This document shows positions 2,212 through 21,100 of a stretch of 21,100 bases of DNA, in pieces (the first letter of the stretch is position 1; every line of letters begins with the position of its first letter). A model generated the notes under the pieces. It ran no database searches, was not told the origin of the DNA, and saw nothing but the letters and a program-made list of their open reading frames with translations. The stretch comes from a virus: the IMG/VR virus record IMGVR_UViG_3300043410_000577, positions 1-21,100 of that record; one strand, written 5' to 3'. The position numbers and the translations under genes are program-made.

Positions 2212-2378
2212 AGGATAGCTTTCTACTTTTTGTTTTTATCGAGGAGACTTATCGAAACTCCTCTATCTGGGTCTGCCTTCAAGTATGACCTTCAATGTCC
2301 TCGGGCGAACCTCTGAACTCCAATCATACCCAACATTGCCAGCGTTCCATAGTAATATATGGTTGCTGTAACTATCCT
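2212..2378 (-). repeat. E element 1, carrying a pseudoknot-capable insert
   Basis: Outer stem AGGATAG (minus strand, 2378-2372) pairs with CTATCCT (2218-2212). The left arm is followed by TTA and the invariant CAGCA. TTTT precedes it, and the right arm is followed by GTTT. The roughly 140-nt interior contains interleaved complementary pairs: 2283-2288 with 2324-2329, and 2293-2298 with 2333-2338, which is an H-type pseudoknot topology. It also has an 6-bp GAGGAG/CTCCTC hairpin at 2240-2262. No tRNA halves were recognised in this copy. It starts 7 nt after the CCA of tRNA-Thr. Confidence 0.6.
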
Positions 2379-3827: not shown

Positions 3828-4030
3828 ATGAATTAGTTGTAGGCTACGCAATCCAAATCGCCCCTACTTGAGTTGACATCACTGTCACTACGTTGTTAAC
3901 TTCTTAGCTGTTGTAGTTCAGCACAGCAGTTCGGACTTCCTTAATTGGACACTCTTCTTAACGGTTAGCTGCCCCCGACTCGATGAAACTGAGTAAGCTA
4001 TAGTAATCACGTTTACTACCGACGGGATCT
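3828..4030 (-). ncRNA. candidate structured RNA between tRNA-Ser(TGA) and tRNA-Asp
   Basis: About 200 nt without a tRNA or a credible ORF. Several local hairpins are visible on the transcribed strand: GTAGTAA/TTACTAT, ACTC/GAGT, GCTGT/ACAGC, TGACA-GTGA-TGTCA (a GNRA-type loop) and GTAGG/CCTAC next to the tRNA-Asp side. I do not recognise it as RNase P RNA, 6S or any other named RNA. Function is unknown; it may be spacer with processing hairpins. Confidence 0.35.
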
Positions 4031-6564: not shown

Positions 6565-6679
6565 AGGTTCTCTTTTTTCGTGCTCCCATTACACCACAGT
6601 GGCGACCAACCCACTGCCGGGATTCGAACCCGGACCCTCTTTTTTGCAGAAAGATTATTTTGATTGCTGAAAAGAACCT
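6565..6679 (-). tRNA. circularly permuted tRNA-Cys-like gene within E element 7
   Basis: On the transcribed strand the order is: AGGTTCT, TTT, CAGCA, then anticodon arm TCTTT-CTGCAAA-AAAGA (6654-6638; anticodon GCA), 4-nt variable region, T arm CCGGG-TTCGAAT-CCCGG (6633-6617), acceptor 3' strand CAGTGG, an 8-nt linker, acceptor 5' strand CCACTG (6602-6597), D arm, then AGAACCT and TTTT. Rejoined at position 26/27 it makes a full tRNA with Cys anticodon and U73. Oddities: no encoded CCA (other tRNAs here have it), a 1-72 mismatch, and the string AAAAAAGAG occurring in both halves, possibly a trace of tandem duplication. The outer 7-bp stem AGGTTCT/AGAACCT belongs to the E family. Confidence 0.7.
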
Positions 6680-6695
6680 TAACGGTCAATAAAAC

Positions 6696-6805
6696 AGGAT
6701 ACATTCTTGACGAATGCTCTACCGAGTGAGCTAATCACGCATGAAGCGTAATGTTGGAATCGAACCAACTACCTATCGTTTGATAGAATTTGCTGTATGT
6801 ATCCT
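6696..6805 (-). tRNA. circularly permuted tRNA-like gene within E element 2
   Basis: Transcribed order: TTTT, AGGATAC, ATA, CAGCA, anticodon 3' region, T arm GTTGG-TTCGATT-CCAAC (6769-6753), acceptor 3' strand ATTACGC (6752-6746), 5-nt linker, acceptor 5' strand GCGTGAT (6740-6734), D arm with GCTC/GAGC, anticodon 5' region, GTATCCT, G, TTTT. The acceptor halves pair over 7 bp (one G-U). The anticodon arm must be assembled from both ends (TTCGT with ACGAT, 4 of 5 pairs); the best loop reads CTATCAA, giving an unusual ATC, so identity is unresolved. No CCA encoded. It lies 5 nt after the CCA of tRNA-Gly(GCC). Confidence 0.65.
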
Positions 6806-6886: not shown

Positions 6887-6892
6887 ATAAAC

Positions 6893-7146
6893 TGTCTAAA
6901 GAAAAAGAGCTCACAGAGTTCTGGTTTGAGATCGATGTCTCCGTGGCAACCAGCGGTTACAGCCGCTCTCTATTTGTCTTGCCTAACGTGGAGCAATTCG
7001 AACAGTCAACGGCATTGATCTGTAATACTATCCGTACATATTCTGTTCAAGTGTGAGTTTTATAAACCCTTCAAGTCAGCCCTTCCGAAGCTAGCTATCG
7101 TCCATACGGAACACTTATATCGCCTTGAGCACTTTTACTTTAGACA
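6893..7146 (-). ncRNA. 254-nt stem-closed structured RNA candidate
   Basis: The ends form an imperfect roughly 20-bp stem: TGTCTAAAG plus AAAAGAGCTC (6893 on) with GAGCACTTTT plus CTTTAGACA (to 7146). The interior has no ORF with a start site and no complete tRNA. One segment (about 6990-7040) contains a T-loop-like TTCGAAT without a good stem, so decayed tRNA sequence is possible. Another interior hairpin is GAGCGGCTGTAACCGCT. It fills the gap between tRNA-Met and tRNA-Gly(GCC). Function unknown. Confidence 0.45.
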
Positions 7147-7209
7147 ACATATTTATAGAATGCCAAGTTGTTCACCGCACAACTATGGCAAAAGCGGGGG
7201 TCTGTAAGT

Positions 7210-7624: not shown

Positions 7625-7679
7625 AGGATGCTTATTTTTAGATTAAAAGTCTAATTATAAAATTTGCTGGACGCATCCT
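7625..7679 (-). repeat. E element 3 (no insert)
   Basis: 55 bp: AGGATGC/GCATCCT outer stem, GTC, CAGCA, then an AT-rich loop containing TTAGA/TCTAA, TTTT before the left arm. It begins 5 nt after the CCA of the two-T-arm tRNA at 7685. Confidence 0.65.
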
Positions 7680-7684
7680 AAAAC

Positions 7685-7806
7685 TGGTGTGTAAGGAAGG
7701 AGTTGAACCTTCAACTGGACCATCCTAAGCGACTGCCGCCACCCAAGGGAGTCGAACCCTTAGCCACGGACTGCCGCCCGGGTGTATACCGTTTCACTAC
7801 TTACAC
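7685..7806 (-). tRNA. aberrant tRNA-like gene with two T-arm motifs
   Basis: Outer features are tRNA-like: acceptor GTGTAAG/CTTACAC fully paired, a Leu-type D arm, T arm GAAGG-TTCAACT-CCTTC, encoded CCA. The middle is 71 nt instead of about 23, with a second T-arm-like hairpin AAGGG-TTCGACT-CCCTT flanked by direct repeats of GGCGGCAGTC. The extra length (about 48 nt) equals the insert in the adjacent tRNA-Asp, but the E-type motif is absent. No anticodon arm with U33 can be assigned with confidence (CTTAGGA, anticodon TAG, is one possibility). It may be a recombined or nested tRNA, or a pseudogene. Confidence 0.5.
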
Positions 7807-7811
7807 ATATT

Positions 7812-7934
7812 TGGTGTCGCTGCTGGGATTCGAACCCAGATTCCTTCCTTGACATGGATTAAAGAAATATGCTGAACGTAACCTAAAACAGGCTCACCCT
7901 TTTATAAGTGTCCTAACCATTAGACGACAGCGAC
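7812..7934 (-). tRNA. tRNA-Asp(GTC) interrupted by a 48-nt insert
   Basis: Acceptor GTCGCTG/CAGCGAC, D arm, T arm CTGGG-TTCGAAT-CCCAG and CCA are canonical, but the gene is 123 nt long. Removing 7858-7905 (or 7859-7906; one shared T makes the junction ambiguous) restores the anticodon arm CTTCC-ATGTCAA-GGAAG, a 75-nt tRNA-Asp. The insert lies in the 5' strand of the anticodon stem (about position 29/30), not in the loop. Confidence 0.8.
7858..7905 (-). repeat. E element 6: permuted copy as an intron-like insert
   Basis: The insert carries the same motif as the other E elements in permuted order: right arm GTGAGCCTG, TTTT, left arm AGGTTAC, GTT, CAGCA. The arms pair over 7 bp with one bulged G, closed by the TTTT loop. 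Exon CACTT can also pair with insert AGGGTG around the 5' junction. At 48 nt it is too short for a known group I or II intron. Confidence 0.6.
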
Positions 7935-8802: not shown

Positions 8803-8859
8803 AGGATTCGCTTTTTGCTTTTTTTCAATAAAAGTTTTTTAATTTGCTGAATGAATCCT
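8803..8859 (-). repeat. E element 4 (no insert)
   Basis: 57 bp: AGGATTC/GAATCCT outer stem, ATT, CAGCA, AT-rich loop; TTTT on both sides. It starts 5 nt after the CCA of tRNA-Gln and ends 9 nt before tRNA-Glu. Confidence 0.65.
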
Positions 8860-8947: not shown

Positions 8948-9008
8948 AGGATAGCTTTTGTCGCTAGACAACCATAAGTTTAGCTTAAAAGTTTGCTGTA
9001 ACTATCCT
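8948..9008 (-). repeat. E element 5 (no insert)
   Basis: 61 bp: AGGATAG/CTATCCT outer stem, TTA, CAGCA, loop without tRNA sequence; TTTT on both sides. It starts 5 nt after the CCA of tRNA-Ile and ends 9 nt before tRNA-Gln. Confidence 0.65.
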
Positions 9009-9088: not shown

Positions 9089-9098
9089 ATGTCAATAA

Positions 9099-9300
9099 AC
9101 ACTCTCTTACGAAAGTGTGTAGTAAAACAAGCTGGTTGGATCCATTCAAAGTGGAAACGCTATACGATTTCCCAACTTGCTTTACTACGCTCGGTTTTTT
9201 CACACACTACAAGAAGTGCTTCTCATCCCCGAGGCCGCCCTCATTAAAGCCCATGTTTTAAGTGCAGGCAGGGTCGCGTTCCCTATAACACTTTTTGCGA
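9099..9300 (-). ncRNA. structured leader upstream of tRNA-Ile
   Basis: No ORF or tRNA. Stems on the transcribed strand include CTCGG/CCGAG, AGAAG/CTTCT, GTAGTAAA/TTTACTAC with CAAG/CTTG (9119-9188), and ACACTTTC-GTAA-GAGAGTGT (9099-9118) ending 10 nt upstream of tRNA-Ile. It may be a small RNA or the processing leader of the array. Confidence 0.4.
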
Positions 9301-12906: not shown

Positions 12907-14304
12907 TTATTTGCGAGCATTTGCCCGAACTTGCTCAAAAGTAATTTCTTTTACAAGTTTACCATCTCGGTACACTTCTTCCAGCATGTTAACAAATGGT
13001 TCAACTGCTTTATCGTGCCAACCAGTAGGTTGATTAACAGCAGTTATCCATTCGCCACCTGATTTCCAAAGTTGGATACGGCCTGCTTTAGATTTCTTAC
13101 CAGGATCAGTAATTGGATCTTTAACAACATCACGTTCTTCACCGTTTACAATAATGCTAGAGCATTTCATTGCAAACTTTTGAGTATCGCGATCTAGTTG
13201 TTGTAGCAACGCACCGCCCATACCAAACGCAATGTTATCTGCACTCCACCCATATGCTTGGAATCCACCAAGGATCATACGGATTGAATGTTCGTTAACA
13301 CCATCACCTTGGATCAAACGTACATTGTTAAGTACTTTAAAACCCTTGGCGTTTGTAGTATATCCAAACTTTTGTCCAAGAATCTCAACTAGTTTGCGGC
13401 AAACAACATCTGGTTCGCCGGAATCAGGACGGATGACAACAGTAGCGCCAGAATCAATAACCTCTTGTCGGAGCTCTTCTCCCCAAAGTTTCGATGCGGC
13501 ATTAAAAACATCATAGCTATCAGAAACCACAGCAACAATGCTGCCAGGTTTAGCAAAGTTATTAAGCATATTACGATAAGCATCTACTTCACCATCACGG
13601 CCCCAGCTAGTAATTGTTGAGTGCTCGGCGGCAGGGATAGAAAAGCCGCTAATCCCAGCATCATAGTATTCGCGAGCATACAGAACACCAGAAATAGTAT
13701 CACTGCCCATGAAGTTAATAAGGTGTGATGCACCTCCGATACCCGCTGATTCCATGCTAGAAACACCACGAGCACCGAAATCGTGCAACTTAAAGTCAAT
13801 AAGGGAAGGGTCACCTGTAGTCTCCAAATAGTTAAGGATCACTTCGCGGATCTTGTGCGACTGTGTTGCCACAGTAGTAGGATACCAAATTGCACGAAGC
13901 AATGCAGTTTCCAACCAAGTTGTTAGCCAGAAACATTCTGGATCTGTGTTTTCAATTGTTGCAAGCACCTGCTTGACAGGTACAACTGTTCCTTCGGGGA
14001 CGGCACGGATGACAACTGGGAGGTATCCATTGTGCTTGTCAAGAATGTACTGCCATCCTGCTCTGTTGAAAGGCTCACCGTGTGCGGTAAGGATTTCATC
14101 AGCCACATCAATGTCTTGTTGTGTGATGGGCTCGAGTAAGTACTCTTTAATGAATGCCTGGAGTCCAAAGAATACTGTCTGATCGTAACGTCCGCCTCGG
14201 GATTCAATGTAAGAATATACACCTGTAGTACCTGCTGGGTATTGTTTGAACATGCTAACTTTGTAGCTGTCAGTGTTAAGAATGATGTTTTTTGCTAATT
14301 TCAT
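12907..14304 (-). CDS. nadV: nicotinamide phosphoribosyltransferase (NAMPT)
   Basis: 465 aa, in the family range (460-490). Converts nicotinamide plus PRPP to NMN, the first step of the two-step salvage to NAD+. Diagnostic blocks: YKVSMFKQYP near the N-terminus (human-type DSYK), KLHDFGARGVSS, EHSTITSWGRDGE with the catalytic His, VVIRPDSGEP (PRPP/ribose-binding), IQGDGVN and a final PF-VNMLEEVYRDG segment. Good ribosome binding site (AAGGAG, 7 nt). Located 44 nt downstream of nadM-nudix, in one operon from the promoter at 15450. Large phages such as KVP40 carry the same pair, and NAD+ resynthesis from nicotinamide can counter NADase-based defence. Confidence 0.96.
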   Translation of the reverse strand: MKLAKNIILNTDSYKVSMFKQYPAGTTGVYSYIESRGGRYDQTVFFGLQAFIKEYLLEPITQQDIDVADEILTAHGEPFNRAGWQYILDKHNGYLPVVIRAVPEGTVVPVKQVLATIENTDPECFWLTTWLETALLRAIWYPTTVATQSHKIREVILNYLETTGDPSLIDFKLHDFGARGVSSMESAGIGGASHLINFMGSDTISGVLYAREYYDAGISGFSIPAAEHSTITSWGRDGEVDAYRNMLNNFAKPGSIVAVVSDSYDVFNAASKLWGEELRQEVIDSGATVVIRPDSGEPDVVCRKLVEILGQKFGYTTNAKGFKVLNNVRLIQGDGVNEHSIRMILGGFQAYGWSADNIAFGMGGALLQQLDRDTQKFAMKCSSIIVNGEERDVVKDPITDPGKKSKAGRIQLWKSGGEWITAVNQPTGWHDKAVEPFVNMLEEVYRDGKLVKEITFEQVRANARK

Positions 14305-14348
14305 GATAAACTCCTTATCGTTTGTATTACAGCCTTTGCGTCTATCGC

Positions 14349-15383
14349 TTAGGCACCCACGAAGTGTTGTAGGATTTCGTAGTGGTCTTCAAAGCAGTCT
14401 TCCGACCGGACTTCTGCAATAGGCACCCACTTAGCCTTTTCTGCATCATCACTACCTTTGACTTTTGGAAGTTCGCCGTCAGGCAGGACAATGTGGAAAG
14501 CGTGTGTAATTATACGTCCACGAGGACTTCTGTCAATAGCGTCAAACACTTTACTACGAACAATATTGCCACGTAGTACAGGTTCTGGTACTTTGATTTT
14601 AGTTTCTTCGCGGAGTTCGCGCAACATTGCGGCTTCTACTGATTTGTCAGTATTAGCGTTGACGTAGCCGCCGGGCAAAGCCCACAAACCTTTACCAGGT
14701 TCGGCACGGCGACGGATCATTAGTACGTGACCAGATTGGATAACCACTGCGTCAGCAGTACTAAAGATAGGAGGATAAGGTAACGAAGCATATTGTTTCT
14801 TGTAAGTTTCTACAAATTCACGTTCACGAATAATTTGTTCGTATTCTGGGCAAGTAGAAAAACTTGCCAAGAACTCGTATGTAGTAGAAGGAACAACTGC
14901 TTTAATAAAGTTCATGTTAACATCACGCTTGAAAAACAAGTCACGAATGTTAACAGCACTAAGCGGCTCAATTTGTTCTACGTTGACAAAGTCCCACTGC
15001 GGAAACATATCAAGGTAAAAACTAGATTCATCTTTCTTGTGGCCAATAATACCAATTTTAAATTCGCCAGGTCCTTTGGCATCATAGATTGCGTCATTAA
15101 CAATCTTTTGAACACGAACAGCCCATGCTTGGTCGTTGTAAATAGTGTCTGGGTTGCCGTTTACTGACACAGAGATGGCCATGCCGCGGGTAGCATACTT
15201 AATCATCTGCTCGCGTTCTGCGACAGTAAATGGGTTTTTATAAGTGCGTGGTTGATTTGCGGAGCCAGCAACAACAATTAGTTTGTCAGTAAGTGCAGTA
15301 GCACGGCGTACAATCTCTAAGTGAGCATTGTGAAATGGTTGAAACCGTCCGATGAGGACAAGGGCATCATATTGCTTTGACAT
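14349..15383 (-). CDS. nadM: bifunctional NMN adenylyltransferase / Nudix hydrolase
   Basis: 344 aa, two domains. The N-terminal NMNAT domain has GRFQPFHNAH (residues 12-21; HxxH nucleotide-transfer motif) and SAVNIRDLFF (ISTxxxR-like). It makes NAD+ from NMN and ATP. The C-terminal Nudix domain (about residues 205-340) has a full Nudix box GX5EX7REUXEE (GGYVNANTDKSVEAAMLREL, then REETKI), expected to cleave ADP-ribose or related compounds. This matches the bifunctional NadM-Nudix type of Synechocystis and phage KVP40. Ribosome binding site AAAGGA. Together with NAMPT it forms a complete nicotinamide-to-NAD+ route (NARP2-type). Confidence 0.95.
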   Translation of the reverse strand: MSKQYDALVLIGRFQPFHNAHLEIVRRATALTDKLIVVAGSANQPRTYKNPFTVAEREQMIKYATRGMAISVSVNGNPDTIYNDQAWAVRVQKIVNDAIYDAKGPGEFKIGIIGHKKDESSFYLDMFPQWDFVNVEQIEPLSAVNIRDLFFKRDVNMNFIKAVVPSTTYEFLASFSTCPEYEQIIREREFVETYKKQYASLPYPPIFSTADAVVIQSGHVLMIRRRAEPGKGLWALPGGYVNANTDKSVEAAMLRELREETKIKVPEPVLRGNIVRSKVFDAIDRSPRGRIITHAFHIVLPDGELPKVKGSDDAEKAKWVPIAEVRSEDCFEDHYEILQHFVGA

Positions 15384-18825: not shown

Positions 18826-19140
18826 TTACTTCTTTCTTTGTTTGGTGCGTTTGACAGGAATCGAACCTGCTTCCTGGAGTTTTAGAGGCTCCGTGTCATC
18901 CATTGACATCAAACGCTTTAAATCTTTATGTTTGACAATTATAACAATTTTGTATGCATTGTCAACTTTAATTGGCAAATCTAAATGCACTGTTACTTCC
19001 GGGCCTGCCATGCTGACAACACGATCATTGCCAACAGTACCAGCAAACGGAATTCCATTGAATTTTCCAAAGACACGATCTCCTATTTCGTATTTAGGTT
19101 TGTATGCGTTCTTCTCAAAATAATCTGCTAAATTTCCCAT
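18826..19140 (-). CDS. small hypothetical protein whose 3' end contains a tRNA
   Basis: 104 aa from the ATG at 19140, where the -10 element ends 6 nt upstream, so the transcript is probably leaderless or nearly so. The N-terminal 70 residues (MGNLADYFEKNAYKPKYEIG, then DRVFGKFNGIPFAGTVGNDR) look like a small beta-barrel/SH3-type domain. The last 25 or so residues are the reading of the tRNA-like gene at 18843-18916. The normal C-terminus may therefore have been extended or replaced when the tRNA arose or inserted. Confidence 0.75.
   Translation of the reverse strand: MGNLADYFEKNAYKPKYEIGDRVFGKFNGIPFAGTVGNDRVVSMAGPEVTVHLDLPIKVDNAYKIVIIVKHKDLKRLMSMDDTEPLKLQEAGSIPVKRTKQRKK
18843..18916 (-). tRNA. 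amber-suppressor-like tRNA(CTA)
   Basis: Acceptor GCGTTTG/CAAACGC, T arm with GCAGG-TTCGATT-CCTGT, encoded CCA. Anticodon arm GGAGC-CTCTAAA-ACTCC with U33 gives anticodon CUA, which reads the amber codon UAG. The 31-39 pair is C-A, and position 8 is A. It lies away from the main array, inside a coding sequence, with its own promoter. Amino acid identity is unknown. Confidence 0.8.
18938..18965 (-). promoter_or_regulatory. promoter of the tRNA(CTA), inside a CDS
   Basis: TTGACA (18960-18965), 16 bp, TATAAT (18938-18943), about 22 nt upstream of the tRNA 5' end. It allows expression of the tRNA independently of its host gene. Confidence 0.75.
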
Positions 19141-20599: not shown

Positions 20600-20649
20600 A
20601 TAAAGCCTCCTTGTATATTATTAACGCCGCAGGCCTAGAAAAAGTTTAC

Positions 20650-20675
20650 AAAAAAATAGGACCCGAAGGTCCTAT
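20650..20675 (-). terminator. intrinsic terminator of the tmRNA transcript
   Basis: ATAGGACC-TTCG-GGTCCTAT, an 8-bp stem with UUCG loop, followed by TTTTTT on the minus strand. Confidence 0.92.
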
Positions 20676-20719
20676 TACTATTTTGGATGACAAGGCATAG
20701 CTGCCTCGGTTCCCGCAGG

Positions 20720-20758
20720 TTATTAAGCTGCTAAAGCAAACTCGCTGTCGTTAACAGC
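20720..20758 (-). other. tmRNA tag reading frame
   Basis: Resume codon GCT at 20758, then AVNDSEFALAA and tandem TAA TAA stops. The ALAA end is the ClpXP/ClpAP degron; the body resembles betaproteobacterial tags (type ANDxxFALAA) with an extra Val. Confidence 0.9.
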
Positions 20759-20880
20759 TACGTCTACTTGGAAGAACTGAAATGCTGATTTTGCATTTAT
20801 AGGTTTTGCTTGATTTACGGTCATCGCCTACCGTGTTGCCGTCTCTACTATCTACCCCTGTCGAAACCATGGCAGGCCCA

Positions 20881-21018
20881 TCATAAGGAATCTACGATTG
20901 AAGCTGATAACATATACATTAACAGACTGACTAAAAGTATTCCTAATATCACAGGAGCAAATACAAATAATCCTGTTAAGAATATAGTAGCCAGTATTTT
21001 AATATGTTTCTTATTCAT
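20881..21018 (-). CDS. 45-aa membrane protein nested in the tmRNA intervening segment
   Basis: ATG at 21018 with AAGGA 6 nt upstream; protein starts MNKKHIKILATIFLTGLFVF, then a very hydrophobic run (about residues 8-38), a transmembrane helix or pair, and a short end (ASIVDSL). The TGA stop ends 2 nt before the 5' nucleotide of the tmRNA coding piece. It fills the whole region that normally is a discarded intervening sequence. Function unknown; a small toxin, holin-like or regulatory peptide is possible. Confidence 0.65.
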   Translation of the reverse strand: MNKKHIKILATIFLTGLFVFAPVILGILLVSLLMYMLSASIVDSL

Positions 21019-21100
21019 CAAACTTCCTTATGGTGGACCTGGCGGGAGTCGAACCCGCGTCCAGAAGTCCTTCGCTTTGAAGGGATTACAACAATTCTTT

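Follow-up and report, generated by a model that had tools for sequence, protein, structure and literature searches.

A stretch of viral DNA of 21,100 nucleotides (nt), positions 1 to 21,100 of the IMG/VR record IMGVR_UViG_3300043410_000577 and here called the window, holds a transfer RNA (tRNA) gene of the Asp(GUC) type that is split between positions 29 and 30 by a 48-nt insert, and close to it two tRNA-like elements with their parts in permuted order. Insert and permuted elements carry the same two complementary arms, E1 and E2. This raises the question of whether they are forms of one RNA, and whether such an RNA is a route to tRNAs. A first-pass annotation had proposed that a single architecture is circularly permuted in them, explained by a circular RNA intermediate opened at different points. 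We find that one domain underlies both the opened and the closed forms and is conserved well beyond the genome of the window, and we consider it probable, at roughly 80%, that the E-arm RNAs are phage Y RNAs, a large and little-described viral family, rather than tRNAs made by way of RNA circles.

Opened and closed forms of the E domain

The four features that pose the question are the following.

7812 to 7934, minus strand: tRNA-Asp(GUC)-like gene with an encoded CCA (7814-7812), A73, and an anticodon stem interrupted after position 29
7858 to 7905, minus strand: closed E domain, the 48-nt insert, with an A-rich flank, E1 at 7897-7890 (bulged G at 7895), the loop GTTTT at 7889-7885, E2 at 7884-7878 and CAGCAT at 7874-7869
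6565 to 6679, minus strand: opened E domain, a permuted Cys(GCA)-type tRNA-like element, with E2 at 6679-6673, CAGCAA at 6669-6664, an acceptor-closing loop with GGTC at 6607-6604, and E1 at 6571-6565
6696 to 6805, minus strand: opened E domain, a second permuted tRNA-like element, its acceptor closed by TTCAT at 6745-6741, with E2 at 6805-6799 and E1 at 6702-6696

Both permuted elements are present with the E arms as their outer ends, as the first-pass annotation had it. Its description of the insert was right in that the arms are joined head to tail, but the loop is GTTTT and not TTTT, an invariant G having been left out. Removal of the insert gives the anticodon stem CTTCC/GGAAG, which is uninterrupted in the tRNA-Asp of two phage contigs, L199 and L200. 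ARAGORN did not call the unspliced gene at 7812-7934 in the window, and single-sequence folding gave this gene no advantage over shuffled versions (z -0.16). The near-identical contig L144 (99.97%) carries the same insert.

The E2 arm can be written as AGGWTN5CAGCAW, with E1 as the 7-nt complement of E2. The window has seven matches to this pattern, all on the minus strand, where shuffles expect 0.05. Six of them are in the opened order, E2 followed by E1 48-160 nt downstream and then a G, with RNA between the arms, and the Asp insert is the only closed hairpin, E1-GTTTT-E2. A scan of virus contigs for the motif gave at least 120 stretches. Near-identical contexts were removed before copies, partners, pairing and closed hairpins were counted, and rows more than 93% alike before the counts of ring distances and permuted tRNA-like elements. 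A downstream partner was found for 306 of 341 distinct motif copies; the 35 partnerless ones include matches due to chance, copies whose partner is a base short, and closed copies. When the partner was picked by ATCCTG alone, both variable positions also paired in 207 of 221 copies, against none of 22 upstream controls and 23 of 90 where AGGAT is not followed by CAGCA. In opened copies picked only by AGGAT and ATCCTG, 156 of 169 distinct ones pair at both variable stem positions (shuffled mean 22, maximum 38), and the covariation score of 40 aligned copies was higher than in any of 500 shuffles or any slid version. The G after E1 has a frequency of 1.00 in the 306 rings, as we call the opened copies, with one ring listed as having A there, and Watson-Crick pairs are disfavoured at the position after the stem (43 observed, 63 expected). 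Many copies have U-rich flanks, and the strand ahead of E1 is often A-rich. Bacterial genomes had 14 pattern matches, one of them with a partner, and the E element therefore looks phage-bound. A DNA-similarity search of the phage collection gave no useful match to the elements of the window, and a literature search turned up no description of the stem-NNN-CAGCAA motif, from which we do not claim that it is absent from print.

To compare the two topologies we used a covariance model made from opened copies only, with their halves re-joined. The model matches the Asp insert at 7869-7903 with 17.0 bits (E 0.02, seven pairs and one bulged G), and of ten further closed copies it finds nine at E<1, all but the one in contig L112. 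What weighs against the model is its limited specificity, its top match in the window (E 0.0029) being E1 of one copy beside E2 of the next and no real domain. That a model of opened copies recovers the closed ones nevertheless implies that both represent a single RNA domain in circularly permuted form, and the proposal of a shared architecture is borne out by the model, the pairing and the copies in other contigs.

Besides the pair formed by the window and L144, a flexible search yielded 11 distinct closed hairpins. Ten of these lie inside tRNA genes, and with the gene of the window there are 11 tRNAs with a closed insert. Read from the sequences, the split is after position 29 in nine of them and after 28 in L034 and L183. 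The anticodons after joining are GUC in seven, GAU, UCG and two that are CAU-like. CCA is encoded in nine of the 11 (the exceptions are again L034 and L183), and five of the seven GUC cases have G73, the gene of the window having A73. ARAGORN did not locate the junction, as it proved too permissive when given 256 deletions of each closed copy.

These tRNAs invite the explanation that the E domain is a splicing element of about 48 nt, a ribozyme or one recognised by a protein, so that the closed copies are tRNA introns, the opened copies are permuted introns, and the exon leaves as a circle that is later cut into a tRNA. Removal of the Asp-type insert does give a perfect 5-bp anticodon stem that is uninterrupted elsewhere, the joined loops are mostly of 7 nt with U33 and A37-A38, the CCA is mostly encoded, and the split between 29 and 30 recurs in permuted copies, for instance in L093 and L013. 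Three closed copies, on the other hand, would have anticodon loops of 8 nt after joining (L021 10253-10285, L112 near 597 and L181 344-377).

Permuted group I intron constructs have a permuted order and paired outer arms, and a likeness to permuted intron-exon constructs had been suggested for the window. The E domain differs in being about 48 nt in all, and no Rfam intron family reached the gathering threshold in the window; a group I intron or another known RNA family was rejected.

Interiors of the rings

What lies between the arms varies. The distances from E2 to E1 cluster at 40-59 nt (154 of the 306), at about 80-120 and at 150-250 nt. Among the 154 distinct small interiors, 54 have a perfect 5-bp hairpin with the 7-nt loop NUNNNAA (shuffles 0.5, maximum 3). 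These hairpins are mimics of anticodon arms, the commonest being UUU, UGU, GGA, UGA and UCU. Larger interiors have a T arm, an acceptor stem and a D arm in permuted order; certain ones have the normal arm order without an acceptor, and others no tRNA arms. The remaining rings of the window, and an element next to the first permuted one, are these.

7625 to 7679, minus strand: small ring, E2 at 7679-7673, anticodon-arm-like hairpin TTAGA-CTTTTAA-TCTAA at 7654-7638, E1 at 7631-7625
8803 to 8859, minus strand: small ring, E2 at 8859-8853, hairpin CTTTT-ATTGAAA-AAAAG, E1 at 8809-8803
8948 to 9008, minus strand: small ring, E2 at 9008-9002, interior GCTA...TAGC hairpin, E1 at 8954-8948
2212 to 2378, minus strand: large ring, a leader-type structured RNA without tRNA arms, E2 at 2378-2372, E1 at 2218-2212
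6684 to 6687, minus strand: GACC, invariant, the complement of GGTC (6607-6604) in the acceptor-closing loop, and possibly in long-range pairing with it

Single-sequence folding of the small rings against shuffles gave z of -2.11, -1.48 and -1.34. In the type represented by 6565-6679, the acceptor loop TGGTC and a complementary upstream GACC are present in all 11 bodies, which were picked out independently of the motif; CAGCAA is also present in 11 of 11, these loci having themselves originally been retrieved by motif.

An automatic parse of 49 permuted tRNA-like elements showed that the linker between the acceptor strands is at most 8 nt in 37 of them, and that CCA is encoded in four, compared to 1720 of 1783 ordinary tRNAs of the same loci. 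About seven of the 49 rows are visibly mis-parsed, which leaves the contrast unaffected. Several of the short linkers are GNRA-like, or they have the conserved TTGGTC or TTCAT, and neither permuted element of the window encodes CCA. A circularly permuted tRNA would have acceptor termini that can be freed, through a CCA or a removable spacer, and most of these elements do not show them. Ordinary tRNAs of the same anticodon are moreover present at ten of the 11 closed-insert loci. Together the capped acceptors, the rare CCA and the ordinary tRNAs make it unlikely that tRNAs are the products of the rings, and the expected maturation into tRNAs was not borne out. The circular intermediate likewise finds little support, with acceptors that are capped and mostly without CCA and rings that have no acceptor at all, and it is not needed. 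The same acceptors speak against the E domain as a splicing element, as do the conserved GACC upstream that matches the acceptor loop in one ring type, and the rings that are without any tRNA part or have no more of it than an anticodon-arm mimic.

Some other structures were observed in or near the rings. Rings of L084, L077 (5472) and L034 (10239) form a distinct subtype, their acceptor stem continuing as a long helix that bears another 70-90 nt of structure. In the window, a second structured-looking intergenic RNA, without the E motif, follows the large ring at 1990-2211 on the minus strand. A tRNA-like stretch with two T-arm-like segments at 7690-7806 (minus strand) was not called by ARAGORN, and the gaps without a tRNA call inside the cluster (6890-7209, 3828-4030 and 9090-9300) may hold further noncoding RNAs.

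The linked Ro60-like gene

In several contigs the gene directly downstream of paired rings encodes a protein of 477 residues with the Pfam domains DUF7788 (vWA-like) and DUF2828, which matches PHROG 850, 'RNA-binding protein', with an E of 1e-141. A predicted model of the protein (predicted local distance difference test, pLDDT, 67) has as its best PDB matches a crystal structure of a TROVE domain, the Ro60 of Thermus phage phiLo, Rsr and Ro60, with Z from 15.7 to 11.4 and the next unrelated structure at 10.8. The predicted fold thus matches that of Ro60/Rsr. The Pfam TROVE profile itself had no match in the 50 contigs with E elements.

The gene, phrog_850, was found in 36 of the 50 E-element contigs and in one of 17 control contigs, chosen mainly for having the scan motif without a full partner; the single positive control, L074, has a six-of-seven partner and may itself hold a ring. 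When loci were instead retrieved by the protein alone, a ring was present in 75 of 78, these being the best 80 of 316 relatives minus two retrieved earlier, a sample that leans to close kin. In all 71 loci with at least 400 nt of upstream DNA, an E ring ends 25-305 nt upstream of the gene. At the protein-retrieved loci 206 rings are on the strand of the gene and three on the opposite one (scrambled control 1), and rings and gene share a strand in all 23 contigs where both were placed. RNA ligases were tried as partners and rejected, RtcB and Rnl1 each being found in one and PF09414 in nine of the 50 contigs, with no linkage. That the Ro60-like gene is linked and RNA ligases are not is a further point against a splicing element, which we regard as unlikely.

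It is also conceivable that E elements are signals for transcription or RNA processing in the tRNA operon, such as 5' protecting stems or terminators, with no relation to Ro. They do have U-rich flanks and are located at promoters or directly behind a CCA end, but such signals would leave unexplained the tRNA-like interiors, the closed copies inside tRNAs and the unbroken adjacency to the Ro-like gene, and this explanation is highly improbable.

Among isolated phages, a protein of the phrog_850 type is encoded in 675 of 50,697 records, and in LeBron and Winky the gene is already annotated as 'Ro-like RNA binding protein'. Rings with the 7-bp stem, NNN and CAGCAA, some of which have a permuted tRNA inside, lie near the gene in eight of 13 isolates examined: Felix O1, Shigella Sf14, Listeria LP-124, Enterococcus A2, Mycobacterium LeBron and Winky, Bacillus BcoS-136 and Synechococcus BUCT-ZZ01. 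The pooled matches are 36 on the gene strand and one on the opposite strand, with 0-5 per scrambled anchor. The letters of the stem vary by phage group (AGACC.., TGG.., AAGNNAC), and CAGCAA is constant.

As for the rest of the window, ARAGORN finds 34 genes, all on the minus strand, the last being a transfer-messenger RNA (20632-21100) that extends beyond the end of the window and also matches the permuted form in Rfam. A tRNA call with the anticodon CUA at 18843-18916, minus strand, is named Pyl by ARAGORN. Read from the sequence, adjacent open reading frames at 12907-15383 (minus strand) resemble nicotinamide phosphoribosyltransferase and NadM-Nudix, of NAD salvage, and this pair is also annotated in Synechococcus phage BUCT-ZZ01.

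Probable phage Y RNAs and their possible role

The rings have several features that are expected of Y RNAs. They have a terminal stem with a conserved helix and an internal loop or bulge (7 bp, a mismatch after the stem and CAGCAA), a Ro60-like protein (TROVE plus vWA) is encoded in related genomes, and the RNA genes adjoin the Ro gene. For vertebrate Ro60, the available text of PMC4726728 describes the site as a helix of 7 bp that has bulges. Among the nearest known RNAs are the bacterial YrlA Y RNAs (Rfam RF02553), which also have an end-to-end closing stem, a Ro60 orthologue as partner, and an interior that resembles a tRNA in which T arm, capped acceptor stem and D arm are permuted. The rings differ in the 7 bp, NNN and CAGCAA, as compared to YrlA's own stem and internal-loop consensus, in being many per phage, in their new interior types, and in having one closed topology inside a tRNA gene. 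The permuted tRNA genes of algae and archaea also have the 3' half before the 5' half with the termini joined, but those, as the available text of PMC3978253 describes them, use a bulge-helix-bulge (BHB) motif and a splicing endonuclease and yield tRNAs, whereas the E rings are mostly capped and linked to a Ro60-like gene.

Phages with Ro proteins or Y RNAs have been described. In the available text of PMC12282133, an Rsr-like protein, CKA15_055, and putative Y RNAs are proposed for Listeria phage CKA15, without a named motif. We find three E rings in this phage (L292) at 25,290-25,552, just upstream of CKA15_055, and none in 26,236-26,727 of the record, its most abundant noncoding region. The same text cites Chen et al. 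2014 for mycobacteriophage Y RNAs, which are phage-encoded and occur with a Ro-like gene, as the E rings do here in LeBron and Winky, and it cites work on bacterial Y RNAs for the tethering of Ro to PNPase and for tRNA mimicry. Jumbo phages encode ROT/TROVE proteins, by the available text of PMC7824862.

If the E-arm RNAs are Y RNAs, the E arms would pair to form a conserved stem that binds Ro, and the rings would be noncoding RNAs closed by this stem around a capped tRNA-like module, an anticodon-arm mimic or another structured RNA, the permuted tRNAs being mimics of the YrlA type. The Ro60-like protein (DUF2828/DUF7788, phrog_850), whose gene adjoins the rings and shares their strand in related phages, is the probable ligand of the stem and may protect the RNA as a stable ribonucleoprotein (RNP), in which the tRNA-like or anticodon-like part could then serve as a handle, a decoy or a quality-control adaptor. 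In the Asp gene the E stem, closed by a G-initial loop, sits in the anticodon stem and the RNA ends at the acceptor, so that the RNP architecture would be unchanged except for the place of its ends. Such a shift could have come about if a tRNA gene was duplicated and the outer halves were then lost. A retained Ro-binding stem would explain both topologies without cutting and joining or circular RNA, and splicing would then probably not take place.

Several observations weigh against this reading. The model of the partner protein is of modest confidence, 14 of the 50 E-element contigs lack phrog_850, and the 21.1-kb fragment of the window has no match to it. Five of the 13 isolates (GAP32, nt-1, phiAS5, phiM7 and Ahp1) have no convincing ring. 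The YrlA model RF02553 stays below its gathering score of 69, with 32.4 bits in L013 and 39.8 bits in LeBron, and also matches across adjacent ordinary tRNAs with 26-28 bits; since the cut-off is not reached, the E rings are not filed as Rfam YrlA members. Finally the Asp-type genes, with their frequent CCA, good joined anticodon loop and G73 in most GUC cases, fit a spliced, working tRNA. One could therefore imagine a mixed case, in which the rings stay as Y RNAs and the Asp-type closed copies are real introns, derived from the Y stem and removed by an unnamed activity. The closed copies do resemble complete tRNA genes, also in the Asp identity base G73, but nearly all their loci also have an ordinary tRNA with that anticodon, and they are the same domain as the Ro-linked rings. 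We think this rather unlikely, if less so than a splicing element throughout.

Read as phage Y RNAs, the E-arm RNAs unite the puzzling 'permuted' and 'interrupted' tRNA genes of phage tRNA clusters in a single RNA family, which is recognised by a 7-bp stem followed by three bases and CAGCAA and has a protein partner that can be named. These RNAs are missed by tRNA finders and by Rfam, which calls for caution. A tentative further idea is that many large phages use their own Ro60 to display tRNA-derived Y RNAs, many of them with varied anticodon-arm mimics, as a platform for decoy or repair against the anticodon nucleases of the host, and that the E stem in the open-acceptor tRNA-Asp ties a chargeable tRNA to this platform. 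As the signature extends to laboratory phages such as Felix O1, the function of Ro60 and Y RNAs in infection can be tested in ordinary strains.
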